From a virus: a DNA stretch of 37,368 bases. This document shows positions 302 to 22,897 of the stretch, in pieces; position 1 is the first letter of the stretch; the number at the start of each line of letters is the position of its first letter. The notes below the pieces were generated by a model, which worked only from the letters and a program-made list of their open reading frames with translations, had not been told where the DNA came from and ran no database searches. The stretch lies in the IMG/VR virus record IMGVR_UViG_3300045131_001469, positions 1 through 37,368 of that record, one strand, 5' to 3'. The position numbers and the translations under genes are program-made.

Positions 302-1726
302 CTACAGGGCGCCCCTCATGAAGTCGTCAATCATGGATTGGATTTGGATCCGATCCATCGAGGGGAAGGCGGCACTCAGTGTGATGACTGCATTCTCCCT
401 GGATTGGCTTTCCAGGATGATCTTTGAGATGTTCGCATTGGGTGAGTTGAAAGGCGTTGGGGATTGTGATGCGGCCTTTCTCTGGAGACTGTACCCAGTG
501 TTTTCTGCCATCTGGGTAATGCCTGCATCTGACAATTCCATTCCAGCCAAAGCGAAAGACTGAAGAAGATTTCCCATTGCTTTGATGTCCTCATTGGACT
601 GACTCCCCCATACCAGTTTCGGGATGCGGCCGGGGAGGTTATTGATCTGGCAGAACTGGGTGACCAGCTGGTGGATCAAGGTGTCGCTCAACATCATCGC
701 ATCGAACTTCCGGATGTCGTCACGTACCGCGCCCTGAAGGGAGGATACGCCGGATCCCAAACCGGTCGGCTGGGCTTCCGCTGAAAGGGTTTGTCCAATG
801 ATGAGTTTCGACTTCTCCCGCTGGCAGATTGAAAGGAACTTATCATAGGCATCACCCGAGTCTGTCGATGAAACTTTCTGGATCTCAATCGACGTGTCGC
901 GGGAGCAGACAATGCCACCCAGGCGAGTCGCCAGGGAGAAGGCGCGTTCGAGGAGATTCTTTCCTTCATCATCAGCGAATTTTCCAACCAGGAACGGTGA
1001 GCCATAGCGGTCCAAAAACCGAGCCCACCACTCTCTGGACATCGCGGAGAGCAGCCACCAGAAGAGAATGGATCGCATAGGACCGCCCCAGTTTTCTGGA
1101 GCGGTAAGAAGATTTCCTTTGTGGATGATGTACCGGGATGGGTCTGGATCGTGCTTCGTTGACAGGATATATCCACTGACTGGATCCACGTCAAAAATTT
1201 GGAGTTTCCCAGTTGTCCAATCGAGTAGGTGATAAGGGACCGGGATAAGATTGGCAATGGCATAGCCGCGTTGGACGGGAGCATAGACCTTTTCGACAAT
1301 GGAAATCGGGTACAGGGATGAATCCATCATGTGAGAGCAAGCCATGCGGAAGGCCTTGCACCCTGAGATTGCCTCATTAACGGCTTCAGCGGTCTGCACG
1401 TCGGCCGGGTTTTTCTTATCGAAGGGAAGCACGGAAATTGTGTCGCCTAAAACCGCCAGCTTTCGCTTCGTCCATTCGGATTGAATATGCGAGTCCACAA
1501 TGATGACATCACGGTAGAGCGCAAAAAGATCACGCGTCTGACCTGCCTCGGCCTCCGATACGATTGAGATGATGCGGCCGGCGTCCATATTGAGCGCCAT
1601 CTGACAGGGTTCCATAAGGGCGGAAACAGTGCTGACGGGATGTGTGGGAATGTTGTTTTCCTTACCGCCCTTTTGAGTTCCTCGCCGATCGCGCAGGGTT
1701 TTATACATGTCTTTGAACCAGCCCAT
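302..1726 (-). CDS. Portal protein, Mu gp29-like (DUF935 family)
   Basis: This 474-residue protein matches the Mu gp29/DUF935 portal family in length, neighbours and general sequence character. The portal forms the dodecameric ring at the head vertex through which the terminase pumps DNA. The start is set by a strong GAGGAGGT site just before an ATG beginning MGWFKDMYKTL, while a longer in-frame extension reaches back into the nuclease gene. Typical features are the central tract around WWARFLDRYGSPFLVGKF and the later stretch SAEAQPTGLGSGVSSLQGAV. It is the last gene of the minus-strand packaging operon, 10 bases after the terminase nuclease gene. In Mu the portal is followed directly by F; here F lies 16 kb away on the other strand. 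Confidence 0.88.
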   Translation of the reverse strand: MGWFKDMYKTLRDRRGTQKGGKENNIPTHPVSTVSALMEPCQMALNMDAGRIISIVSEAEAGQTRDLFALYRDVIIVDSHIQSEWTKRKLAVLGDTISVLPFDKKNPADVQTAEAVNEAISGCKAFRMACSHMMDSSLYPISIVEKVYAPVQRGYAIANLIPVPYHLLDWTTGKLQIFDVDPVSGYILSTKHDPDPSRYIIHKGNLLTAPENWGGPMRSILFWWLLSAMSREWWARFLDRYGSPFLVGKFADDEGKNLLERAFSLATRLGGIVCSRDTSIEIQKVSSTDSGDAYDKFLSICQREKSKLIIGQTLSAEAQPTGLGSGVSSLQGAVRDDIRKFDAMMLSDTLIHQLVTQFCQINNLPGRIPKLVWGSQSNEDIKAMGNLLQSFALAGMELSDAGITQMAENTGYSLQRKAASQSPTPFNSPNANISKIILESQSRENAVITLSAAFPSMDRIQIQSMIDDFMRGAL

Positions 1727-1736
1727 AACAACCTCC

Positions 1737-2450
1737 TCAGGGCATTTGAAGCCCAATTCCCTTTTTTGAGTCCCGATTCGCGTCCGGACGTTTCCGGTTT
1801 TTCGCGGTGCCACTTGCGGTGGCGTATGTTCCCACCTGGGCGGCCGATGCCTGGACTGGTCCGCCCGGAATGATCAAGGCGTGAAGGCTCAACTTCACCG
1901 CATCGAAACAATCACCATGCCGACCTTCATCATCCACCTCAGCCTCGAATGTCCCCCGATCCCTGACGACCGAGCGGAAATCCTTTTGAACCCAGTTTTC
2001 CTTTGGGAGTGCGAGATATCCATCCTCGATGGTATTGACCATCAGATTCCCCAGGTACTGCTTAAAAATCATTCGTTCGCCCATGTACTCCGTTGCCTCT
2101 GAGGCGACGATCAGGTCGACCGGGATCCTGCCGGCAAAGGCGCTCCGCAAATCCACCGCGAAATACTTTTCAGAGGTCGCGTCAATGCAGAGCCTGCGCG
2201 GCCGGAACCCATGCGGGATCCCCTCCAGAACAAGATTCAAGATTGCCCTGGCAATGGACGGCTCTTTTGACTTCCACGACACCAGAAGCCTGACAAAATA
2301 GGTCATCCCCACTTCCTGGGTAACAGCCAAAACCGATGGGTTGCTCTTCTGTTTTGTCGTCGTGCCCACGTCGAGGCCCAATCCAATTCGCGGATAGTCC
2401 GGAGAGATATAGGATGGCCAGCCAGCCGGGAGTGCCTTGGATACCTTCAT
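1737..2450 (-). CDS. Large terminase, nuclease domain (split gp28-like)
   Basis: This 237-residue protein corresponds to the C-terminal RNase H-fold nuclease of a phage large terminase, which cuts DNA at the start and end of packaging. Visible motifs are an acidic strand GLGLDVGTTT (Asp near residue 27), a second acidic motif LCIDATSEKYFA, and a C-terminal HGDCFDAVKL motif whose Asp residues would complete the metal site. No Walker A motif is present. Its ATG overlaps the stop of the upstream ATPase gene as ATGA, so the two halves are probably translationally coupled and assemble together. An open extension upstream of the ATG only shadows the ATPase gene in another frame. Together the halves (237 + 306 residues) equal a normal single Mu gp28 in length. 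Confidence 0.85.
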   Translation of the reverse strand: MKVSKALPAGWPSYISPDYPRIGLGLDVGTTTKQKSNPSVLAVTQEVGMTYFVRLLVSWKSKEPSIARAILNLVLEGIPHGFRPRRLCIDATSEKYFAVDLRSAFAGRIPVDLIVASEATEYMGERMIFKQYLGNLMVNTIEDGYLALPKENWVQKDFRSVVRDRGTFEAEVDDEGRHGDCFDAVKLSLHALIIPGGPVQASAAQVGTYATASGTAKNRKRPDANRDSKKGIGLQMP

Positions 2451-3367
2451 GACTCCAATCCTTCCGTGAGATTGACGCCACAGCATACCCCGGCGCCGAG
2501 CTCCATTGCCCTGGCGATCGCGGCGGGACTCACCGCCGAGGTACCACCGATGATAAACTGCAGGGCGAAGTTCCGATCCCATGCCTGTTTGTCGCTGGCC
2601 TTCTTCCGGCTTTCCTCCGGGGAGACCGGGGCGCCTGTATCATCATCATAGAGCGTTACCCCTGCCGCCGTCCCGTCCCACACGTCAACCCGATGACACA
2701 GGATCCCGGATGCGGACCGGTACCAGTTTCCCCTAGGATTGAGTTTGAACTCCTGATCAGCCGGGGGAATGAACTGCTCATAGGTGTAGTGCTTGTCATC
2801 CGGGGGCGGCGTCGTCGCATACCGCAGGCTGTACTTCGGGTTTGACGACATGAAGGGCGACACCGCCTCCATCACGTCCCTGGCATTGGGCCACCGGCCG
2901 ACCTCATCCCCAATGATATGACCCGTCCAACCCACGGCCGTGTCCGGGTTTGGGGCGATCACTCGGGACCGCGAGCAGATCGTATTGGTGAACCAGATCT
3001 TGGTCTCAAGCTTTGAGTGCTCGAAAACGTCGCAAACATCATCAAAACTCAAGCCATCCACGGAGGTTGTCAGCTTCAGTCCGGCCTGATCAGCGGCTGA
3101 TCGCATCATATCGAGCAGCTTTGACCAGATCATGGCCTCTTTAAGGAGTACTTCGGATCCCAGCACAATCGATGCTGAGATAAACGAGACCAGGGCGCCG
3201 CGTTCCTCCATCATCCAGTCAAGGGCCTGGCAGGCCAGGAGATGACTTTTCCCGCGCTGTCTGCTCCATAGCAGGAATAGGCGGCGGACATCCTTCCGGA
3301 AGACTTCTTCCTGGTAAGGGCGAAGCTTGATGATTGGCTCTGTGGGTTTACGTGCCACTGAAATCAA
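2447..3367 (-). CDS. Large terminase, ATPase domain (split gp28-like)
   Basis: This is the N-terminal packaging-motor half of a gp28-type terminase. It has an adenine-binding-like segment RPYQEEVF near residue 16, a Walker A variant SRQRGKS at residues 35-41, and a Walker B strand HIIGDE at 150-155, followed by the typical coupling region rich in short polar motifs. The protein stops after 306 residues, where the nuclease would normally follow through a linker. The nuclease is instead encoded by the next, ATGA-overlapping gene. The start may be the TTG used here, or a GTG three codons later giving MARKPTEPI. The gene overlaps the upstream peptidase by 20 bases. A sequencing or assembly frameshift is possible, but the clean ATGA junction argues for a genuine split. 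Confidence 0.85.
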   Translation of the reverse strand: MISVARKPTEPIIKLRPYQEEVFRKDVRRLFLLWSRQRGKSHLLACQALDWMMEERGALVSFISASIVLGSEVLLKEAMIWSKLLDMMRSAADQAGLKLTTSVDGLSFDDVCDVFEHSKLETKIWFTNTICSRSRVIAPNPDTAVGWTGHIIGDEVGRWPNARDVMEAVSPFMSSNPKYSLRYATTPPPDDKHYTYEQFIPPADQEFKLNPRGNWYRSASGILCHRVDVWDGTAAGVTLYDDDTGAPVSPEESRKKASDKQAWDRNFALQFIIGGTSAVSPAAIARAMELGAGVCCGVNLTEGLES

Positions 3368-3947
3368 ACCATCCCTTCGAGTAGTCCAGGATCATCACGT
3401 CGGTATTGACGCGGCTCTTTAGATAGCGATAGGTATCGCTGGGGCTTCCGTATTCCAACTCCGTTGACTTCGGAATGAAGCCGTTCTTGATCAGCGCGTT
3501 GTTGCTGGTCTTACTGCAAATCACGCCATTTTCCCAGATGTCACCCAATTTCCGAAACACCCTGGCATCCAATCCCTTTAACGGGCGGCGGAGAAGGTAT
3601 CGATTGATCACACTATCCAACACCTGAAGAGGCAATTCGATATAGGAGTACCGCTCAAACTGGGAGGCTTCAAGCAGGTCGCACTGAACCATTGCCTTCA
3701 GACATTCACCCATGTACGGCGGCCGCACCCAGTGAAAGACGATCCACTCTGCTTTCCGCTCGGCTAAATCCGAAAAGACCTGGTTACATTCAACCTTCTC
3801 AATGCGGCCCGTCTGCGCAGAGGCCTCAATGATATAGTTCGAGTCATAAAATATCGCCTGGTGGGATGCAGATCCCGTCAACTTACAGGTCAAGCGATTG
3901 AAAAAGCTCGGTCCCCTGGTAAAAAGGACATCTCCGGTATTCGGCAT
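3348..3947 (-). CDS. Permuted papain-like (NlpC/P60, YiiX-type) hydrolase
   Basis: This 199-residue protein begins NTGDVLFTRG, as permuted papain-fold enzymes of the YiiX/YebB-like NlpC/P60 group typically do (a GD motif opening the first strand). A histidine in SASHQAIFY (residue 29) and a cysteine in NGVICSKTSNN (residue 144) would form the permuted catalytic pair. Such enzymes cleave peptide, amide or lipid-acyl bonds in cell envelopes. It sits between the gp27-type gene and the terminase ATPase, where Mu has no equivalent, so it could serve lysis, entry or head maturation. The chosen ATG lies one base after the upstream stop; another ATG five codons earlier is possible. No signal peptide is visible, so export would need a holin or virion delivery. 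Confidence 0.65.
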   Translation of the reverse strand: MPNTGDVLFTRGPSFFNRLTCKLTGSASHQAIFYDSNYIIEASAQTGRIEKVECNQVFSDLAERKAEWIVFHWVRPPYMGECLKAMVQCDLLEASQFERYSYIELPLQVLDSVINRYLLRRPLKGLDARVFRKLGDIWENGVICSKTSNNALIKNGFIPKSTELEYGSPSDTYRYLKSRVNTDVMILDYSKGWFDFSGT

Positions 3948-3948
3948 A

Positions 3949-4599
3949 TTAGACGGGTGCATGGGTGATCTCCCCGAACATAAGCTGGCGGATCTGGTCA
4001 ATCTTCGAATCCTTATCCGTCTTCGAGTTGATGATCTCCTCTGCCTTCTTGTTTCCATACCATTTCAGGAAGAGTTCAGAGGTCTGCCGTTCAAACTTCT
4101 GGTGCTCCAGGGCCAGCGCGTCCCGCTGAACCTCAAGCCGCCCCTGATCTGTCCTGGCGCGGGTCTTATCTGCCTCGCTTTTATTAAGCTTCGCGAGGGT
4201 TTCCGACATAGCCAGGAGATCCTCACCATCCGCCAATTCAAGGGCCTCCATGATCTTGCCGGCAGCGATCGAGACGGCGGGCGAATTGACGTCGCCCCCG
4301 GCCGCATCAGCCAGGCGCATGGAGAACTCCGCCATGGCTTTGATCCGGTCAACCTTATCCTGTTCGGAAAGCCATGTTACATAGGCCCGCGCCCGGTATT
4401 CGCTGAGGTTCTGCGCGGAGATCGCCGAGGCTGTCTGCTTCGCCCCTCCGAACCGGGCATCCTTGAGCGCCGCCTTCACTTCCGGAAGGCCATTCAGCCA
4501 GGGCAGGATCTCCACATCCGCCTCTCCATCCCGCATCCGGGCGTTAAGCTGCTGACGGATCGCGAACGGGAGTCTGCCTATTTTACCTTTTGCGCTCAT
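3949..4599 (-). CDS. Mu gp27-like protein (DUF3486), probable small terminase
   Basis: The 216-residue product begins with a basic segment (KGKIGRLPFAIRQQLNARM) and a following ILPWLN-type helix. These are the hallmark of the FluMu gp27/DUF3486 family, in which the N-terminus forms a helix-turn-helix-like DNA-binding unit. The C-terminal half, from about residue 140, is strongly charged and helical (LNKSEADKTRARTDQGRLEV), consistent with a coiled coil for oligomerisation. In Mu relatives this protein directly precedes the large terminase and is thought to recognise the packaging site. Here only the permuted papain-like gene intervenes. The ATG is immediately adjacent to the upstream stop codon. 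Confidence 0.78.
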   Translation of the reverse strand: MSAKGKIGRLPFAIRQQLNARMRDGEADVEILPWLNGLPEVKAALKDARFGGAKQTASAISAQNLSEYRARAYVTWLSEQDKVDRIKAMAEFSMRLADAAGGDVNSPAVSIAAGKIMEALELADGEDLLAMSETLAKLNKSEADKTRARTDQGRLEVQRDALALEHQKFERQTSELFLKWYGNKKAEEIINSKTDKDSKIDQIRQLMFGEITHAPV

Positions 4600-5367
4600 T
4601 TAGAACCTTATCTGCTGTTGATCGCCTGGTGTGCTGATCAAACCAGCCTTCCATCCCTCATGATCCAACAGTCTGGCGAAGCCGCCTGGGATCGATATCG
4701 TATGTGGACAATCCAGTGAGGTATCTGCCGACATCTCTTCCTCAATGAGGTAGATGCCATTCCAGGCATAATATTGACCCCATGAATTTTGATCGGCGTA
4801 GAACTTCATTCCGTTCTGGATAAACCGGCCGACTCGGCAGGTACAATGCCCCCCACCGCGTGCGCTCTCCTTATAGACGTTATCCAGGCAGCCGTTTACA
4901 GGACTAGGACTGAACCAGCCGGCATAGATCGCATGCCCCACAACCAGAGGCGTTTCAAGTAAGGCCTCGCCCTGGGAAACCCAATCCCTTCCAATCTCCA
5001 CCAGCATGGAATCCTTTGGGATCCAGCCCAATGCCTTTATGGCCTCAAATCCCTGAGGAATCAGCAATCCACCTGCGAGGCATCCATTATTGAACATCTG
5101 TTTCGCCTTCCACCAGATCCGGTATCCATCCAACTGGTACCCGTTGGGAATAGCGCCATGCCCAATGTAATGCCGCAATATGATTTCCAGCCAATTTGCC
5201 CAACCATGACCCACACAGTCATCCGTCGTCTGGCTATACGTTGGGATACAGTCATGAATCCAATTATTAAGGGGCACATCAGGCCGTTCCGAAAGAATCT
5301 CACGTCCCGCGCCAAGACGCGGAGAACGCAGACATCCATTCCAATATGCGGGATCTCGATTGATCAT
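4600..5367 (-). CDS. Papain-like (C1-type) cysteine peptidase
   Basis: This 255-residue protein shows the papain triad in normal order: a nucleophile region QTTDDCVGHGWANW (Cys51), a histidine in GGGHCTCRVG (His174) and an asparagine in the diagnostic ADQNSWG motif (Asn194, followed by the usual Ser-Trp-Gly). C1-type peptidases occur in phages mostly as cargo or virion-associated enzymes. Here the gene sits in the lysis/packaging block downstream of a putative holin and a small lipoprotein, where an endolysin is expected, and no muramidase or amidase is seen elsewhere. I infer a possible lytic or entry role, but proteolytic maturation of virion proteins is equally open. No signal peptide or propeptide is obvious. 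The start ATG directly follows the preceding gene's stop. Confidence 0.72.
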   Translation of the reverse strand: MINRDPAYWNGCLRSPRLGAGREILSERPDVPLNNWIHDCIPTYSQTTDDCVGHGWANWLEIILRHYIGHGAIPNGYQLDGYRIWWKAKQMFNNGCLAGGLLIPQGFEAIKALGWIPKDSMLVEIGRDWVSQGEALLETPLVVGHAIYAGWFSPSPVNGCLDNVYKESARGGGHCTCRVGRFIQNGMKFYADQNSWGQYYAWNGIYLIEEEMSADTSLDCPHTISIPGGFARLLDHEGWKAGLISTPGDQQQIRF

Positions 5368-5538
5368 TTACCACCTCGGGGGATTGACGGGCACGCCATT
5401 GGTTTCCATCAGCGGCCCATGATAAGGATAATGTTCCGGTCCGCCCTTTGGCGCCGTGGCCAATAACGCACAGCCAACGGCACCCCAGAGGATGCAGCCC
5501 AGAAGCGAAGCGCTGATGACCTGATAAAGAGGTTTCAT
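5368..5538 (-). CDS. Small lipoprotein, possible spanin-like lysis protein
   Basis: A short 56-residue gene. The product starts MKPLYQVISASLLGC, continues through a hydrophobic stretch, and has a lipobox-like LWGAVGC ending at Cys23. After that comes a short, proline-rich tail (GGPEHYPYHGPLMETN, then VNPPRW). The size and Pro-rich mature part resemble outer-membrane spanin subunits (Rz1 type), and its place between a putative holin and a peptidase fits a lysis cassette, but no inner-membrane partner is identified. The last codons include GAGGTGG, which forms the ribosome-binding site of the downstream papain-like gene, whose ATG follows at once. Confidence 0.6.
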   Translation of the reverse strand: MKPLYQVISASLLGCILWGAVGCALLATAPKGGPEHYPYHGPLMETNGVPVNPPRW

Positions 5539-5547
5539 TGGACAGCC

Positions 5548-6126
5548 TTATTCCGCGCCCGTCGACGTGGTCGTGGTTCTGGTTGCCGGACTGGAGTCAC
5601 CGGTTGTCACGATATTCCCATTTCCGGTAATAGTGACACCGCCGCCCTTGTCGCTCCCGTCTTGTGATTTATTCAGCATGTAGGCTGCTCCCAGGGTCGT
5701 GATAATGTCGAGCCCTGTCGCTCCGGCCATCATTCCAGGCTGATCCTTCCAGGCCGAAAAATACCCCGTGTTTATGCCCAGCAAATCAACTCCAAGCGCG
5801 ACCCCTCCATTCCCAAGAGCCTGCGCCTGAATGACCTTTGCCTTGGTCTGGACAACACTGTCGTGGGATGACACCGCTAGAATCGAGGCGCACCCCGAGG
5901 ACAGCAGCAACGCCCCTCCCATAAGAAAAGCCATCAACATGCCGGTCACCGACGGCAGGGCAATCTTCCGCTTTTCAATCACGCTCCAGATCGCCGCAAC
6001 CAAAACCATGATCGCCCCCGACACTTGAGCCCAATCGCTTTCATTGGCCACACCTGACCCGCCCAACATACCGCCCATACCCGCCAACACCGCCCGCAAT
6101 ACACCCATAACCTGATTCTGTTTCAT
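5548..6126 (-). CDS. Putative holin-like membrane protein
   Basis: The 192-residue product starts MKQNQVMGVLRAVLAGMGG and contains a short predicted helix, then a transmembrane stretch (VSGAIMVLVAAIWSVIEKRK, near residues 35-54). The pattern, ending in the charged WSVIEKRK turn, is characteristic of small phage holin candidates that follow a GG-rich N-terminus. A second hydrophobic stretch ends in LLLSSGCASILAV, which looks like an internal lipobox around Cys79. The C-terminal half is Gly/Thr/Ser-rich and polar. It could be a holin fused to a second domain. A good AGAGGATC ribosome site precedes the ATG. The holin assignment rests on topology, N-terminal similarity and position. Confidence 0.5.
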   Translation of the reverse strand: MKQNQVMGVLRAVLAGMGGMLGGSGVANESDWAQVSGAIMVLVAAIWSVIEKRKIALPSVTGMLMAFLMGGALLLSSGCASILAVSSHDSVVQTKAKVIQAQALGNGGVALGVDLLGINTGYFSAWKDQPGMMAGATGLDIITTLGAAYMLNKSQDGSDKGGGVTITGNGNIVTTGDSSPATRTTTTSTGAE

Positions 6127-6143
6127 GATCCTCTATCCTTTCC

Positions 6144-6425
6144 TTATTGGTTCAAACGCTCGTTTTCGATAATGCCCTTCGCCGTGATCTTGCTGTACCG
6201 GCTCGCTCCCAGCTCATCCAAGACATCATCCACCAGGCCAAGGCCCTTGAGGATCAGGAGCGACTGCTCGATATCCTCGGCATCAAATTCAAAATCAACC
6301 ATTCCCCGCCTGGTCATCAGGGAAACGATCTGCATCGGAACGAACGCCAGGCGAAATCGTTCCGCCAGAAACTTCAACAGGGCTTTCCGAAGCATTTCCC
6401 GATCGATTTGCTCTTTCACTCTCAC
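6144..6425 (-). CDS. Small winged-helix-like phage protein
   Basis: A 93-residue protein of unknown function. The start is taken as GTG because it overlaps the upstream stop as GTGA, the coupling pattern used throughout the element. A longer reading frame upstream only shadows the neighbour. The predicted layout is a helix (EQIDREMLRKALLKFLAERF), then SLMTRRGMVDFEFDAEDIEQSL, a helix LLILKGLGLVDDVLDELG and a final strand-like RYSKITAKGIIENE. This resembles a small winged helix whose tail reads like a regulatory wing. It may be equivalent to one of the small proteins that precede the terminase in Mu-like phages. Confidence 0.55.
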   Translation of the reverse strand: MRVKEQIDREMLRKALLKFLAERFRLAFVPMQIVSLMTRRGMVDFEFDAEDIEQSLLILKGLGLVDDVLDELGASRYSKITAKGIIENERLNQ

Positions 6426-6754
6426 GTTGCACCAGGCTTTCTGCCCCCGCACAAATAGGGGCACATGCTCAACATTGTTTCCAGGCGACCAATCACACGT
6501 TCCAGATCCTTGAAACACTTATCACCGGACCGAAGTTGCTGATTAATTTCAGAGCGCGTCTTTTCCAGTTCGAGCTTGAGATCATGAAGATCACTCTTCG
6601 TGGCGAAATCCTTCAGAATCTGCTCAGACAGTGGCGGTTCCCGACGATAGGCCTTCAGCATTGCGAATACTGACGCCCCGAGCGCGGCCAGTGATGCAAT
6701 ATTGGAAATGAGATTGTACTGAAAGATCGCGCTCTCTGTGGTTGTAGGATCCAT
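6422..6754 (-). CDS. Membrane-anchored coiled-coil protein
   Basis: First gene of the leftward packaging/lysis operon. From the ATG preceded by AAAAGGG, the product is 110 residues. It has a polar N-terminus (MDPTTTESAIFQYNL), one transmembrane helix (ISNIASLAALGASVFAMLKA) and a long amphipathic helix rich in Asp/Glu/Lys (TKSDLHDLKLELEKTRSEI and onward), and it ends with a CPYLCGG cysteine pair. This topology, membrane anchor plus periplasmic or cytoplasmic coiled coil, is like DUF2730-type proteins of Mu relatives and also like inner-membrane spanins. The function is not established. The upstream in-frame extension has no ribosome site. Confidence 0.6.
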   Translation of the reverse strand: MDPTTTESAIFQYNLISNIASLAALGASVFAMLKAYRREPPLSEQILKDFATKSDLHDLKLELEKTRSEINQQLRSGDKCFKDLERVIGRLETMLSMCPYLCGGRKPGAT

Positions 6755-6907
6755 GATTACCCTTTTCGATGTGGATTCATTTGTGCGCACCATAGCGGAA
6801 GCCATTGCACCCTTCTAATCGGCGTGGAAGAACTGAAACCAACCCCCTGTTTTCAAAACTTCCACGGGAACAAGACGGGCGCCAGGCAATGTGGGAATCT
6901 CACTCCC
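6755..6907. promoter_or_regulatory. Divergent control region, packaging block versus accessory genes
   Basis: This is the only stretch between the leftward packaging/lysis genes and the rightward accessory genes, so promoters for both should lie here or just inside the genes. I could not pick convincing -35/-10 hexamers. Late genes of Mu relatives use activator-dependent promoters, which often lack a -35 box. Confidence 0.35.
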
Positions 6908-11471: not shown

Positions 11472-12371
11472 ATGACAACACATAAGCACGAAACACGGAA
11501 ACTGAGTGACCTCACCATCCACCCGCTTCTCAAAGATAGCCCGATGCTGGGCGGTGATCATCCGGACGTAAAGAACCTGATGGCTGCCATGATGGAAGAA
11601 GGGCTGGCTGATAACCCGATCATCATCACCCCCGACAATCAGATCATGGACGGACGCCACCGCGCCAAGGCCGCCGCGATCCTGGAGTGGCCCGAGATCC
11701 CCGTGATCGTCAAACCGGATGCAGATTGTGAGAAGATTGTCACCCACGCCATCCTAGCCCGTCGTCATCTTCTCAAATGGCAGATCGCCTACAGCGTCGC
11801 CCCCGTCCTGGAACGGTATGTGGAAAAGGGTGTCTATGTTCGGAAGAACAACCTCAAGGTCGGGGTAAAATTAGCAGAAAAGCCAATAATCTCCCGAAAA
11901 GGTCAAGTTGACCTTATCGGGGATTCAGATGATTCAATGACCCTTTTTCTTAGGCGGGCTGGAATCTCCGTTGAAACTTGGAAACGGGTGCATGCAGTCC
12001 GCAAGAAATTCGAAAAGCGCCCTGACCTGAAGGATCAATACGAGCCCCGGATGTTCCTGCCTGACAGTGATCCCCAGGCGATCTCCCTGGAAGGCGTCAT
12101 GAAAGCGATTGGGGCGGTTGAATCTTACGAGACGAACAAGCATGACCTGAAGGCGCTACGTGGCCAACACGACCGGCTCGCCCTGGATCTGATGAAGAAG
12201 GCCGGAGCCCAGCTTGAGTTCTTTGAAAAGCTGGAGCCAGCCAAGCAAAAGAAGTTGGCTGAAGAAACCGTTCAGGCCGTCCGCCTCTGGCCGATGGAGC
12301 TCAAGAAGGAACTGCTGTCCGCCCTGCAGCAGGATTTCATCGTCGAACAGAAGACCCGCAAGATCAAGTAA
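11472..12371 (+). CDS. ParB/Srx-like domain protein
   Basis: A 299-residue protein with an N-terminal ParB/sulfiredoxin-like domain. LSDLTIHPLLKDSPML is followed by IMDGRHRAKAAAILEWPEIP, whose DGRHR (near residue 60) matches the GxHR nucleotide-binding motif; PVIVKPDA then completes the fold. A central region may hold a helix-turn-helix (RRAGISVETWKRVHAVRKKF). The C-terminal third is strongly charged and helical. ParB-like proteins bind CTP and/or DNA. Located two genes upstream of the transposase, it may support transposition, immunity or replication, as similarly placed ParB-domain proteins do in other Mu-like phages. Good AAGGAG site. Confidence 0.75.
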   Translation: MTTHKHETRKLSDLTIHPLLKDSPMLGGDHPDVKNLMAAMMEEGLADNPIIITPDNQIMDGRHRAKAAAILEWPEIPVIVKPDADCEKIVTHAILARRHLLKWQIAYSVAPVLERYVEKGVYVRKNNLKVGVKLAEKPIISRKGQVDLIGDSDDSMTLFLRRAGISVETWKRVHAVRKKFEKRPDLKDQYEPRMFLPDSDPQAISLEGVMKAIGAVESYETNKHDLKALRGQHDRLALDLMKKAGAQLEFFEKLEPAKQKKLAEETVQAVRLWPMELKKELLSALQQDFIVEQKTRKIK

Positions 12372-12684: not shown

Positions 12685-14445
12685 ATGTTTCAAGGTTGGA
12701 CAAAAGACGAGATCGAGGAATACCAGGGAAAGACGAGGCTCATTAGCCAGGTCGAGGAGGCCTTGGTTGAGACGCCGTCGCTCACCCGCGTGGCCACCCG
12801 GCTGGGGCAGTCACGCCCCGGCCTGTATCGGCTGATGCAAGCATGGAAGATCGCCAAGGAATCGGGGAATCATCGGCTGCTGCTCCGGGGGAAATCCACC
12901 GGGCGCACGCCGGTCTGCAACCCCACGGCGGAGGATCTGCGGGTACTCCGCGACTATTACGTCCGATCCAACCGCGCCAGCGGGAAGGGCTCGATGACGA
13001 TGGCGGCCAGGATGGCGGCGAAGGATGGAAAGTTATCATCGGATCTCACCGTCGCCATCCTCACGCCCCGTTCCAGCAAACACTCTCTCCCCAAGTCGCT
13101 CCGTGACGCAATGTTCGTGGCACCCGATGTGATTAAACATCATCGGTCGCCCACAGAGGAGCGGCTTGGGGGGATATATTGTCCAGGTCAACTCCGGATG
13201 GCCCGTGATGAGGCCGCCGATACCCCGCGCCGCCTAACCCCCGGCGAACGCCAATCCTGGGATGACGCCACGATTAACTTTTGCGTGGTGGTTCCCTGGC
13301 CCTGGGGCGGCTGCAAGACGAGCGATCGATTCGGAGTCCGCATCGGCCGGTTCCAGTTGCTGGCCGGGATCGATGACGCCAGTGACTACTGCCCCGGCTT
13401 CTCCTACGTCTGCCGCCCGATGGGCAGTTACCGCGCCGAGGACTCGACGGCTGCCATGTTCCGTGTGTGGGAGAAATCTTATGTCCCCAGGAGCGTCATG
13501 CTGGAAGGCGGCGTATGGCAGGCGCATCGGAGTCTGAACTTCTACAATCAGTTGGGCGTCCAGATTCACAGCGCCAAGGGCCGCCCGCACATGAAGCTGA
13601 TCGAGTCCTACTGGAACCGCCTGTGGACGGTGATGAGCTTGATGACGCATGGTCAGGTTGGCCGGTTCCGGGGTGAGATGGAGCGGGAAACTGATCAGCT
13701 CATGAAGTGCCAGGCCGGCGCGGATCCCCGCGAGTTCTTCCCGAGCCTGGAAGAGACGCTCTGCATCATTCAGAAGTCAATCAACTATCTCAATGCCGAG
13801 GAAGCCGGCTCAAAGAAATATGGGAAGTGGATCCCGCAGGAGATGCACAATGCCTGGATGGCGCAACATGCGCCCATGCACATTGAGCCCGGCCTCGCCT
13901 GGACCATTGCCCCGGAGATCCACACGCGCAAGGTGCTGAGCGGCATGGTCAAGATCAAGACGGAAAGCCCGCTGGGATTCCCGTTCCCGTATCACTTCGC
14001 CACCAATGATCTCAATGAGTATGACGGCAAGAAAGTGACGGTCTATTTCGATCCCCACGCGCACCCGCTCACGGCGACGATCGCACTTGCCGATGAACAT
14101 GCCGGGGTGAAGCCTGGGACAATCATCTCGAATGCGGCCGCGTGCCTCGACGATGCCCCGGAGGTATTCCGGATGGCTGATGGCTGGGAAGTCGATTTCA
14201 ACCGCCACGGCATCAACGACGCCATCGCCGCCAAGAAGGCCCAGCGCCGCCACGTGGTGACCAACTACCGGGCGATTGGTCTGGATGGACGGATTCACAA
14301 GGGGTCTGTCACCCGGGCGCCGGGTGCGGCCGTGATCCCCGAGCGCATGCCTGATGAACCAATTCCGGAAATCACAGGCGATTCCTGGATGATCCCGATG
14401 CCGAAGATCAAGTCCCGGCAGGAATTGCTTGAAGCGGTGAGTTGA
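12685..14445 (+). CDS. MuA-like DDE transposase
   Basis: At 586 residues it is close to Mu transposase in length. An N-terminal helix-turn-helix (VATRLGQSRPGLYRLMQAWK, near residue 36) should bind the element ends. The RNase H-fold catalytic core has its first acidic residue in SWDDATINF (Asp193/194) and a final Glu in HMKLIESYW (Glu307). At the second catalytic position it reads VMLEGGVW (Glu274), where an Asp is usual. A C-terminal beta-barrel and basic tail follow (DGKKVTVYFDPHAHPL), as in Mu_transposase C-terminal domains. It catalyses end cleavage and strand transfer of the phage DNA. MuB-like and Gam-like genes follow. A 12-bp hairpin separates it from the ATPase gene. Confidence 0.9.
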   Translation: MFQGWTKDEIEEYQGKTRLISQVEEALVETPSLTRVATRLGQSRPGLYRLMQAWKIAKESGNHRLLLRGKSTGRTPVCNPTAEDLRVLRDYYVRSNRASGKGSMTMAARMAAKDGKLSSDLTVAILTPRSSKHSLPKSLRDAMFVAPDVIKHHRSPTEERLGGIYCPGQLRMARDEAADTPRRLTPGERQSWDDATINFCVVVPWPWGGCKTSDRFGVRIGRFQLLAGIDDASDYCPGFSYVCRPMGSYRAEDSTAAMFRVWEKSYVPRSVMLEGGVWQAHRSLNFYNQLGVQIHSAKGRPHMKLIESYWNRLWTVMSLMTHGQVGRFRGEMERETDQLMKCQAGADPREFFPSLEETLCIIQKSINYLNAEEAGSKKYGKWIPQEMHNAWMAQHAPMHIEPGLAWTIAPEIHTRKVLSGMVKIKTESPLGFPFPYHFATNDLNEYDGKKVTVYFDPHAHPLTATIALADEHAGVKPGTIISNAAACLDDAPEVFRMADGWEVDFNRHGINDAIAAKKAQRRHVVTNYRAIGLDGRIHKGSVTRAPGAAVIPERMPDEPIPEITGDSWMIPMPKIKSRQELLEAVS

Positions 14446-19871: not shown

Positions 19872-19948
19872 CTTCATCATTCATAATTCACAATTCATCA
19901 TTTCTTTAGACCCTTTTCAGTTCTTTCACGCCCGTTAGACCCTTTTCA
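19872..19948 (+). repeat. Heptamer tandem repeat and 14-bp direct repeat before gene I
   Basis: Four degenerate seven-base units, CTTCATC ATTCATA ATTCACA (19872-19892) plus ATTCATC, are followed by two copies of TTAGACCCTTTTCA (19906-19919 and 19935-19948), the second ending in the A of the protease gene's ATG. A related CCGTTTAGACC occurs at 30570-30590. The AT-rich run differs from the surrounding coding DNA. It could be a late promoter or activator site. Confidence 0.6.
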
Positions 19949-21042
19949 TGACTTCGGCGATAGTCCGTCTCGTGAAACAAGAAGTCCAACTCACTCCGCT
20001 GAAGATCAGCAATGGGGCATTGCAGGTTAAAGGATTCCCGCGCCGCCTGAAGTTGCTCGACTGGGGTGTCAACCAAACCGTGTACGGGCCGGTGATCGTC
20101 AATGAGACGACGGCCGCGCTGCTACCGATGAACCAGAAGAAGCTGGGCTTCGACACCATCGCGCTCGATTACGAGCACAACACGGTCAAGGGGACTCCCG
20201 AGTTTGAGCGTACCAGGGAACCGCGTGAGATCGCCGCCAATGGTGTCCCGCTTGTTGTTCCTGGGGAAGGGCTGTTCTTCGATGCGCTGGAGTACACGCC
20301 GAGCGGCAAGCAAAACCACCTGAACTACATTGACCTCTCCCCGACCCCGAGGCTTTCGGACAAGGGCGAAGTGGTGTTTCTGCATTCCGTCGCGCTATGT
20401 CGCCAGGGCGCCGTCGAGGGGCTGCGTTACTTTTCTGTCACGCTGGGTAATGAGGATGTCAGTACAACAAACCAAGGAGCAAGCAGCATGAATGAATTGA
20501 TGGCGTTTTTGAAGAAGGTGTTCAAGTTGCCGGATACGGCGACGGATGAGGATGTGATGAAGGCGTTTCAGGGTGCGGTATCCATGCCGTCTGATGGCGG
20601 CGGCGAGCCCGCCCCCCTTTCCGTGCGGATCCTCGCGCTGGAATCGGCTGTGAAGCCTCTGGTTGCCCTCGTGGCGGCTGATGGCCAGCTCACCACGCTG
20701 AGCGCCGGGCTTGATGGTCTCAAGACCCGCATCGGCGACGTGGATGTCCAGGGCAAACTGACGGCGCTCTCCACCACGGTGGAAACTGTCCAGAAGGATG
20801 TCGTGTGTTTCATGGCCCGTGTGGCAGGCAAGGTTGTGCCTTTGAGCGCCGAGGATCTGGCGAAGACCTCGATGGAGACGCTTACCGCCATGATCGAGAA
20901 ATTGCCCGTGACTGTGCCGGTCGCGCAGTTGACGGCGTTGTCAGCGGATGGCGCGGCGCAAGTCGTTTCGGCCATTCCTGATGGGGATGTGAAGATCGCG
21001 CGGGCGTGCGGTCTGGATCCGGCGAAGGTGTTTAAGAAGTAG
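19948..21042 (+). CDS. Mu I-like prohead protease
   Basis: This 364-residue protein is of the Mu gpI type. The N-terminal half is the protease (GFPRRLKLLDWGVNQTVYGP, VIVNETTAALLP, TIALDYEHNTVKGTPEF), with the LDYEHNT stretch fitting the family's conserved core. The C-terminal half is the scaffold: helical, acidic and Ala/Thr-rich, with repeated LTTLSAG/LTALSTT-like segments. In Mu the scaffold is also made separately from an internal start (gene Z); this gene has an equivalent start at codon 181. It cleaves scaffold and capsid proteins during procapsid maturation. Start uncertain because no clean ribosome site precedes the ATG. Confidence 0.82.
   Translation: MTSAIVRLVKQEVQLTPLKISNGALQVKGFPRRLKLLDWGVNQTVYGPVIVNETTAALLPMNQKKLGFDTIALDYEHNTVKGTPEFERTREPREIAANGVPLVVPGEGLFFDALEYTPSGKQNHLNYIDLSPTPRLSDKGEVVFLHSVALCRQGAVEGLRYFSVTLGNEDVSTTNQGASSMNELMAFLKKVFKLPDTATDEDVMKAFQGAVSMPSDGGGEPAPLSVRILALESAVKPLVALVAADGQLTTLSAGLDGLKTRIGDVDVQGKLTALSTTVETVQKDVVCFMARVAGKVVPLSAEDLAKTSMETLTAMIEKLPVTVPVAQLTALSADGAAQVVSAIPDGDVKIARACGLDPAKVFKK
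20488..21042 (+). CDS. Nested scaffold protein (Mu Z-like)
   Basis: An in-frame ATG at codon 181 of the protease gene is preceded by CCAAGGAG at ideal spacing, giving a 184-residue protein starting MNELMAFLKKVFKLPDTATD. This is the exact arrangement of Mu genes I and Z, where the protease and its scaffold share a C-terminus. The sequence is acidic, helical and repetitive, as expected for a scaffold removed before DNA packaging. Confidence 0.75.
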   Translation: MNELMAFLKKVFKLPDTATDEDVMKAFQGAVSMPSDGGGEPAPLSVRILALESAVKPLVALVAADGQLTTLSAGLDGLKTRIGDVDVQGKLTALSTTVETVQKDVVCFMARVAGKVVPLSAEDLAKTSMETLTAMIEKLPVTVPVAQLTALSADGAAQVVSAIPDGDVKIARACGLDPAKVFKK

Positions 21043-21043
21043 A

Positions 21044-21064
21044 ACGTGAGACGTAAGACGTGAA
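21044..21064 (+). repeat. Heptamer tandem repeat after the protease gene
   Basis: Three units, ACGTGAG, ACGTAAG and ACGTGAA, lie directly after the stop codon and before the next gene's ribosome site. They are comparable in period and position to the repeats at 19872 and 23338. Confidence 0.6.
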
Positions 21065-21104
21065 GTGTTGAAGGAAAATCAAAACCAAAAGAGGAGATGA
21101 GATC

Positions 21105-21953
21105 GTGAAGAAGACAATGATGGTGGCGGTGATGGGAATGGTTCTGTGTGGAGTGGCGTATGGTGCGGCATTGACGGCTGAAAGGGATACGTATCAGCGG
21201 CCGAACCAGTACACGTCGCTGACGGTGGCGAGTAACTCGATTATCTATGCCGGTGCGTTGGTGTGCGTGAACTCCAGCGGCCTGGCGGTTCCGGCTGCGG
21301 ATAGCGCTGGCTTTGCGGTGGTTGGCCGCGCCGAAGCGACGGTGGATAACCGGGGCGTGCTCTATGTGGCGACCAAGACGATCAAGGTTGCCAGGGGAAC
21401 GTTCCGCTGGGCCAACGGCGATGTGATCGCGGTGGCTGATATCGGCAAGATCGTCTATGTCACCGATGACCAGACGGTTTCTAAGACGGGCGGCGGCCAG
21501 AACATCATCGCCGGATCCGTGGTGGATGTGGATGCCGGCGGCGTCTGGGTCGATACCGCCAAAGTGGGGCCCATTGGGGCTGCTACTCCGTCGAGCCTGG
21601 CTGTGTCCGGAGCGGCCACAGTTGGCACGACACTCGGGGTGACGGGCGTCGCAACCCTCACAGGCAATGCAGTCGCCAATGAGGTCGATGCGCGGACGGC
21701 TACGGCGTTGCTCCTGGGCAAGGCTACGGCCACAAGCGTGACCATCGGAGCTTCTGATGCCGATGTGAGCGTTCCGGGCGCTCTCGGTGTGACGGGCGCC
21801 ATTGTTGGATCCAGCACGGTTGCGGCGACCGGATACAAGATCGGAACGATTGCTGGATGGAGCGGCATTGTGACGAATCTCGCTCCGGGAGGAACTAACT
21901 TCGAATACCGGGCCGGTGGCATAACGACCAACGTTGTGTTCGCTGCTGAGTAA
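21105..21953 (+). CDS. Head decoration-like protein with Sec signal peptide
   Basis: The 282-residue product starts at GTG (GAGGAG site upstream) with a typical signal peptide: MKKTMMVAVMGMVLCGVAYG, followed by AALTAERD. Residues 25-150 resemble capsid decoration/cement proteins (DUF2190 style) in RDTYQRPNQYTSLTVASN, IYAGALVCVNSSGLAVPA and the VADIGKIVYVTDDQTVSKT region. From about 160 on, short repeats such as ATVGTTLGVTGVATLTGNAV look like fibre sequence. It occupies the place of a head decoration gene between I/Z and the major capsid T. A Sec signal on a capsid component is unexpected. Confidence 0.6.
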   Translation: MKKTMMVAVMGMVLCGVAYGAALTAERDTYQRPNQYTSLTVASNSIIYAGALVCVNSSGLAVPAADSAGFAVVGRAEATVDNRGVLYVATKTIKVARGTFRWANGDVIAVADIGKIVYVTDDQTVSKTGGGQNIIAGSVVDVDAGGVWVDTAKVGPIGAATPSSLAVSGAATVGTTLGVTGVATLTGNAVANEVDARTATALLLGKATATSVTIGASDADVSVPGALGVTGAIVGSSTVAATGYKIGTIAGWSGIVTNLAPGGTNFEYRAGGITTNVVFAAE

Positions 21954-22012
21954 GCCTTAACCAATCACGAGAAGAACTGAACTGAACTGAAACTTAACTA
22001 GGAGAAAAGACA

Positions 22013-22897
22013 ATGGATATCAATGCGGCGAATCTGACGGCGTTATCGAAGAGTTACAACACGGCGTTTCAACAGGGCTTGGGCTTTGTCCCGCCCGTGT
22101 CGATCGACTTCCTGTTCCGGGACTTCCCCTCGACCACGGCGGCGAACTTCTACGCCTGGATGGAACAGATCCCCGGCTTCCGGGAGTGGGTGGGTGATCG
22201 CGTTTTCAAAAACGTGCGCGGCCAGAAGTTCGAGGTCCTCAACCGCGACTGGGAAGATAGCGTCTCGATGAACAAGAACGAGATCATGGATGATCAGTAC
22301 GGTGTCTATACGCCCCTTGTGCAGATGATGGGCGAAGCCTGGACGCTGAAGAAGTACCAGCTCGTTCTCGCGGTGCTCACGGGAAATCCCCTGTGCTTCA
22401 CCGGCAAGGCGATCTTCGCCGATGACCATCCCTACGGTGACAACACCGTGGATAACGTGGTGACCGCCGCCCTGAGCGAGGCCACGTTCAACGCGGCGAT
22501 CCTGGCGGCGGCCGGCTGGAAGTTCAGCAACGGCGAACTGTGCCGTACCCGGTTCACGCACCTGGTGCATGGCCCGAAGCTGCATGAGACCGCCTTCCAC
22601 CTCGTGGATGCGCAGTTCCATGTGACCGGAGGCGTCGCGATCGATAACCCCAACTACAAGCGCGTCCAGCGCGTTGAGTTGGAGGATTTGGCCGGTGACT
22701 TTGATGACTACTGGTATCTGATCGATGCCAGCAAGCCGATCAAGGCGGTAGCCCGCCAGATCCGACAGGAAGCCGCGCCCCTGATGGATACCCGCGTCGA
22801 GGAAGTGATGCGGACGGGCAAGTTCGACGTGATGGCTGATGGCCGTGCCGCCGCTGGCCCCACGTTCCCGCACCTGGTCTACGGCGGGATCCTGTAA
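22013..22897 (+). CDS. Major capsid protein, Mu gpT-like
   Basis: A 294-residue protein of the Mu-like major head subunit gpT family. Typical motifs are SIDFLFRDFPSTTAANFYAW, IPGFREWVGDRVFKNVRGQ, DWEDSVSMNKNEIMDDQYG, LTGNPLCFTGKAIFADDHPY and the C-terminal FPHLVYGGIL. Several hundred copies form the icosahedral shell (HK97-type fold). It follows the decoration-type gene and a pentamer repeat (GAACT units) in the 59-base intergenic space, and has a strong AGGAG site. A long-range hairpin follows the gene. Confidence 0.9.
   Translation: MDINAANLTALSKSYNTAFQQGLGFVPPVSIDFLFRDFPSTTAANFYAWMEQIPGFREWVGDRVFKNVRGQKFEVLNRDWEDSVSMNKNEIMDDQYGVYTPLVQMMGEAWTLKKYQLVLAVLTGNPLCFTGKAIFADDHPYGDNTVDNVVTAALSEATFNAAILAAAGWKFSNGELCRTRFTHLVHGPKLHETAFHLVDAQFHVTGGVAIDNPNYKRVQRVELEDLAGDFDDYWYLIDASKPIKAVARQIRQEAAPLMDTRVEEVMRTGKFDVMADGRAAAGPTFPHLVYGGIL

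Follow-up and report, generated by a model that had tools for sequence, protein, structure and literature searches.

Two terminase genes in a Mu-like phage

The window analysed here is an entire virus record of 37,368 bases, in which the two domains of a terminase large subunit (TerL) are encoded by adjacent genes on the minus strand. The first, terL-N, lies at 2447..3358 (-) and encodes the ATPase, a protein of 303 aa with a GTG start. The second, terL-C, lies at 1737..2450 (-) and encodes an RNase H-type nuclease of 237 aa with an ATG start. The summed length of the two products is 540 aa. The longest open reading frame of the ATPase gene begins at TTG 3367, but GTG 3358 is the better start because it aligns with the ATG of L002, a relative with an 89% identical ATPase. 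The stop codon of terL-N and the start codon of terL-C share a 4-nt ATGA overlap at 2447..2450 (-). A Shine-Dalgarno-like sequence, GGAAGGA, is located at 2459..2465 (-), within the coding end of the ATPase gene and 8 nt before the nuclease ATG, and L002 likewise has GGAAGGA 8 nt before its GTG. The original prediction had named the two frames, the Walker A (SRQRGKS) and Walker B (IIGDE) motifs and the overlap, and all of these are present in the sequence.

A terminase-type P-loop ATPase domain, one of the features that define TerL, is present in the window. Walker A occupies residues 32-38 (3245..3265, minus strand), and its Lys is kept in 34/34 separate-frame and 53/54 fused rows (one gap) of the 88-row alignment described below; the acidic pair DE of Walker B, residues 151-152 (2903..2908, minus strand), is kept in all 88. 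The ATPase matches the terminase large subunit family phrog_2 (E 1.4e-13), and a profile of the ATPase family, built from split and fused rows (alignment A3), matched T4 gp17 among solved structures (E 6.7e-9). The AlphaFold model of the ATPase (mean pLDDT 86.8) had as its best PDB match the terminase ATPase of Thermus phage P74-26 (4znk, E 7.5e-9) and also matched T4 gp17.

The nuclease was recognized mainly by its predicted fold. Its one Pfam match, Terminase_6C (E 0.0015), fell below the cut-off of that family, a PHROGs search returned nothing for it, and PDB sequences yielded no convincing hit to its profile; fold comparison alone gave matches. The AlphaFold model (mean pLDDT 89.4) was most similar to the human cytomegalovirus terminase nuclease (6ey7, E 1.7e-6), with further matches to the phage D6E terminase and the G20c terminase nuclease (5m1p). 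The TM-scores by query length were moderate, at 0.48 to 0.55 for the named matches of both models. The nuclease domain that characterizes TerL, RNase H-like and bearing three acidic residues, is thus present, and the window keeps D27, D90 and D180, which we take to be the catalytic three by analogy with other TerL proteins. Pfam matches of the two proteins fall under the curated cut-offs, an NCBIfam search gave no family for either, and tblastn of either protein against phage records gave no match at E 1e-5. The window lacks the one-polypeptide feature of TerL, and the pair is therefore named a split TerL and not an ordinary TerL.

Downstream of terL-C, at 302..1726 (-), lies a gene for a Mu-type portal protein (phrog_113, E 1.8e-48; Portal_Mu, E 1.9e-56). 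The record also encodes a transposase (phrog_310), a DNA transposition protein (phrog_296), Gam (phrog_491) and a protease (phrog_328), all of Mu type, together with a major head gene of Mu type. Mu-type transposition and head genes thus occur in one record, as expected of a Mu-like (transposable) phage. The terminase-portal-holin block occupies the left end on the minus strand (window 302-6805), and the remainder (6824-37149) is on the plus strand. At 19948-22897, on the plus strand and away from the terminase block, are the genes for the protease and the major head, an arrangement that differs from the Mu order. A ParB-like gene (11472-12371) and the Mu-type transposase gene (12685-14445) that follows it closely are separated by a 99-aa open reading frame. 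Two open reading frames that adjoin the terminase genes, at 3348-4058 and 4600-5367, had no convincing family match; by eye, they resemble papain-type enzymes.

Split and fused relatives

A first scan with the ATPase recovered eight viral loci, two of which (L003 and L004) are identical in sequence, and the nuclease was in a separate frame in all of them. The nearest relative, L002, has 89% identity to the window in the ATPase and 75% in the nuclease, and its split falls at the same position, where GTGA replaces ATGA. An uninterrupted close relative with a one-base difference at the junction was looked for among the relatives, and none was found. Wider scans gave 122 loci, from which L001 (the window itself), four one-domain loci (L035, L036, L051 and L091) and 30 duplicates were dropped. 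The resulting 88 two-domain rows, window included, comprised 54 fused and 34 separate-frame terminases, a ratio that is no census because one scan was limited to the best 80 of 125 relatives. Both L101 and L102 were retained despite zero-length branches. In the two-domain tree of these 88 rows, 33 of the 34 separate-frame rows formed one clade together with a single fused row, L030 (support 100/100), and the sister of this clade consisted of 11 fused rows (support 92/94). The ATPase tree required three changes of label between fused and split, as did the two-domain tree. The nuclease-only tree was weaker, with four label changes, and did not cleanly recover the split group.

A second sample comprised 387 genomes from the phylum to which the L042 host belongs. 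Fourteen loci with the nuclease were found, of which six were split, six fused and two unclear. One of the six split loci was the L042 locus itself, and two, L133 and L134, were near-copies (97.6% identical over 3570 bases). The split terminases of L133, L134 and L136 occur in genomes of 2.7 to 3.3 Mb. After L126, L134, L137 and L138 were dropped from the 14 later loci, the enlarged set held 98 ATPase-nuclease pairs, of which 60 were fused and 38 had separate frames. Its four additional distinct split pairs joined the same clade, and in a quick tree of the 98 rows, 37 of the 38 split pairs and L030 formed a clade of 38 (SH-aLRT 99). When a collection of genomes from all bacteria was searched, all eight loci recovered were split; seven of these records name Verrucomicrobiota or Kiritimatiellota groups, the cultured Haloferula luteola, which carries L042, among them, and one is recorded as 'uncultured bacterium'. 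A fused relative used as the query against phage records gave two weak partial matches alone (22% and 34% identity). The split is common to related phages of Verrucomicrobia-type bacteria and is therefore an old working arrangement and not damage. This supports the original prediction of a functional two-gene terminase, since 37 of 38 separate-frame pairs, the window's among them, fall in one clade.

Two rows depart from this pattern. L030, the only fused row within the split clade, has an ATPase 45% identical to that of the window; it keeps the split-type ATPase tail and then runs on into the nuclease. The tail pattern, which was written after seeing the sequences, occurs in 1/54 fused rows (L030) and, by the same strict form, in 22/33 split rows; in the remaining 11 split rows a similar ending (IT[ED] or ISE) is visible by eye. 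The presence of this tail in L030 and in no other fused row favours re-fusion of the halves, and from its sequence L030 looks like such a case. A tree that held the 33 split rows together without L030 was just not rejected (AU p=0.051).

The second exception, L099, has separate frames yet lies deep among the fused rows, outside the split clade. Within L099:193-2705, the ATPase frame runs to 2142, more than 100 nt beyond the point where the nuclease domain begins, and candidate starts (TTG 2022 and ATG 2040) are located at that point. L099 appears to be explained best by a frameshift in a fused gene. Because of the candidate starts, an independent second split is a possible alternative, as is a sequence error.

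The nuclease active site and the gene junction

Both halves show the marks of constraint. Between the window and L002, dN/dS was approximately 0.05 for the ATPase and 0.08 for the nuclease, with dS near saturation; between L003 and L009, the values were 0.017 and 0.055. These ratios indicate that the ATPase and the nuclease are both under purifying selection in the two pairs tested. Among the 98 rows, the first nuclease Asp (D27, in LGLDVGTT; 2370..2372, minus strand) and the third (D180, in HGDCFD; 1911..1913, minus strand) are each kept in 98, and the second (D90, in LCIDAT; 2181..2183, minus strand) in 93.

The five rows without Asp 2 (L012, L021, L023, L024 and L040) carry Leu or Ala in its place and retain the flanking motif. 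All five belong to the 37 split rows of the clade, against none of the 60 fused rows, and the losses amount to three changes on the quick tree. This pattern would suit a reading in which the ATPase alone is the motor, the separate nuclease is being lost or has another job, and some other enzyme cuts the DNA. With Asp 2 gone, the nuclease is perhaps inactive in some split members; a Glu near it, E94, does not vary across the 50 rows of alignment A4, so activity may persist. We regard the Asp 2 losses as a lead and not a result. Against the loss of nuclease function, the window nuclease keeps its three Asp residues and is under purifying selection, and no row of either kind has lost Asp 1 or Asp 3. 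As an account of the window, loss of the nuclease is unlikely.

The junction between the two genes was classified in 37 split pairs, window included and L099 excluded. Fourteen pairs have a 4-nt overlap (10 ATGA and 4 GTGA), 13 have an inserted gene, defined as one extra gene within set limits, five are near, and five are other. The nuclease frame of L041, placed in the near class, may be shifted early, and three of the five pairs in the other class (L006, L039 and L040) also carry open reading frames in the gap. The recurrence of ATGA or GTGA at the same place in 14/37 split pairs argues that the overlap is more than chance. The overlap had been described as the same as other couplings in the element. 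A scan of the window for same-strand 4-nt overlaps between open reading frames of at least 80 aa found 17 pairs, the terminase pair included; ten plus-strand ATGA overlaps join neighbours that look gene-like by eye, which bears out the comparison in part, but some other pairs are clearly spurious.

The inserted genes of the 13 pairs encode 55-414 aa, and seven of them (in L008, L011, L014, L023, L034, L037 and L044) overlap by 4 nt at both ends. Ten inserted genes were scanned against Pfam, giving one clear family (C-5 cytosine methylase) and one weak match below the cut-off. The methylase (PF00145, E 6.8e-69), at L011:6912-8156, is the largest insert at 414 aa and has a 4-nt overlap with each terminase gene. 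L014:6891-7115 and L034:6897-7115, from the same source genome, hold similar small inserts of 74 and 72 aa that begin MITKLDRAV and have no Pfam family.

Programmed -1 frameshifting or stop readthrough could in principle join both frames into a full-length TerL. In each of the 14 pairs that overlap directly, the nuclease lies in the -1 frame relative to the ATPase, and before the ATPase stop this frame is open over 19 to 349 nt. The shared open stretch, however, lacks an X_XXY_YYZ slippery heptamer in 13 of the 14, including the window; L127 has AAAGGGC. The frame relation also differs among split members, 13/37 of which carry a complete additional gene between ATPase and nuclease (within the set limits), and in 14/14 direct overlaps a start codon coincides exactly with the overlap, as the definition of the class requires. 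Frameshift fusion was rejected on the inserted genes and the missing slippery sites; we consider it very unlikely.

An intron-split terL was likewise rejected, on the overlaps and on Rfam scans. The 14 members with a 4-nt overlap, window included, have no room for an intron between the halves, and an Rfam scan at gathering thresholds of 20 of the other 23 split members found no intron family; one tRNA was found in L040, outside the gap. The overlaps, the inserted genes, the lack of slippery heptamers (13/14) and the lack of introns (20/23 of the others) together favour two separately started proteins.

The weakest alternative, that a terL which is normally fused has decayed or carries a sequencing or assembly error, may describe L099, which lies inside the fused clade with its ATPase frame more than 100 nt past the nuclease-domain start, but for the window it is extremely improbable and was rejected because of the split relatives: 37 split rows form one clade with differing junction sequences, frame relations and inserted genes, both halves are under purifying selection (two pairs tested), the nearest relative has GTGA against the window's ATGA, and the shared overlaps and inserted genes exclude a one-base error.

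A proposed two-polypeptide motor and known systems

We consider it very probable that the pair is a naturally split TerL, which arose by one old fission in a lineage of Mu-like phages of Verrucomicrobiota and Kiritimatiellota and acts, through coupled translation, as a non-covalent motor of two polypeptides. The analysis shows conserved separate frames, predicted folds, catalytic residues, purifying selection and a single clade; the coupling, the complex and the cutting are inferred. The fission would have fallen in the linker that joins the two domains, giving two genes. The ATPase would be translated first from a single message, and the ribosome would restart at the ATGA or GTGA overlap to make the nuclease, aided by the Shine-Dalgarno-like site in the end of the ATPase gene. 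ATPase subunits would then form a translocating ring on the Mu-type portal and drive the DNA through, and the separate nuclease would dock non-covalently on this ring and cut the DNA both at initiation and at headful. Predicted folds and motifs mark both halves as TerL domains, and the pair is accordingly expected to function as a TerL does.

A more speculative version, which we hold tentatively and think improbable, is that the freed nuclease has lost a catalytic Asp in some lineages and taken a structural or translocating role there, with another enzyme making the cuts; the gap between the genes would serve as a cargo slot, and the halves would have been re-fused once.

The naturally split TerL, as the preferred reading, bears on how the motor is built. 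In models of the TerL motor, that of T4 gp17 especially, the nuclease domain helps to move the DNA and is coupled to the ATPase via a covalent linker. A natural lineage without the linker, with fused sisters and an apparent re-fusion, offers a direct test of whether the covalent link is needed. The split also matters for annotation, in that full-length TerL models can miss or misread split-TerL phages, and two-gene TerL calls are not necessarily errors.

The open-access text found on split TerL holds one statement of a two-CDS TerL and one intron-split terL, and others may exist. The former concerns Parabacteroides phage φPDS1 (MN929097). Its TerL is annotated as two neighbouring CDSs, taken to be the two domains of the protein, but the authors doubted this and suspected a codon-table or assembly problem (PMC10773633). 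Each φPDS1 CDS has a sub-threshold Pfam terminase match, one of ATPase type and one of RNase H type. The two are separated by a 92-nt gap, in contrast to the 4-nt overlap of the window, and the ATPase half, which alone was compared, has no detectable kinship with the window family (hhalign probability 0.1). The latter concerns the Jug phages, where terL is reported to be in pieces interrupted by group I introns, with splicing backed by RNA reads (PMC12363816); the window halves have no intron. In Kunpengvirus, an archaeal virus, the DNA polymerase and the proofreading exonuclease, two domains of one enzyme, are reported to come from two genes (PMC10848311). This is a two-gene domain split as in the window, but of a different enzyme.

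The TerL of Escherichia phage Mu, gp28 (gene E), resembles the window pair in its position before a Mu-type portal and in its length (551 aa, against 540 aa for the pair). Mu gp28 matches the ATPase profile (hhalign probability 93, E 2.8e-7) and has, by eye, three Asp motifs matching those of the nuclease, but it gave no significant match to the nuclease profile (probability 0.4, E 0.16). The proposal that the two proteins together equal one Mu gp28 therefore held for length and for the ATPase profile, and failed for the nuclease, where sequence comparison found no match to gp28. Mu TerL is one gene, whereas that of the window is two. A further comparison is with fused TerL proteins of the sister clade, such as L026, L029 and L056, whose ATPases are 50, 47 and 44% identical to that of the window. 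These have the same domains and motifs in the same order, yet they are encoded in a single open frame and lack the ATPase tail motif of the split type.
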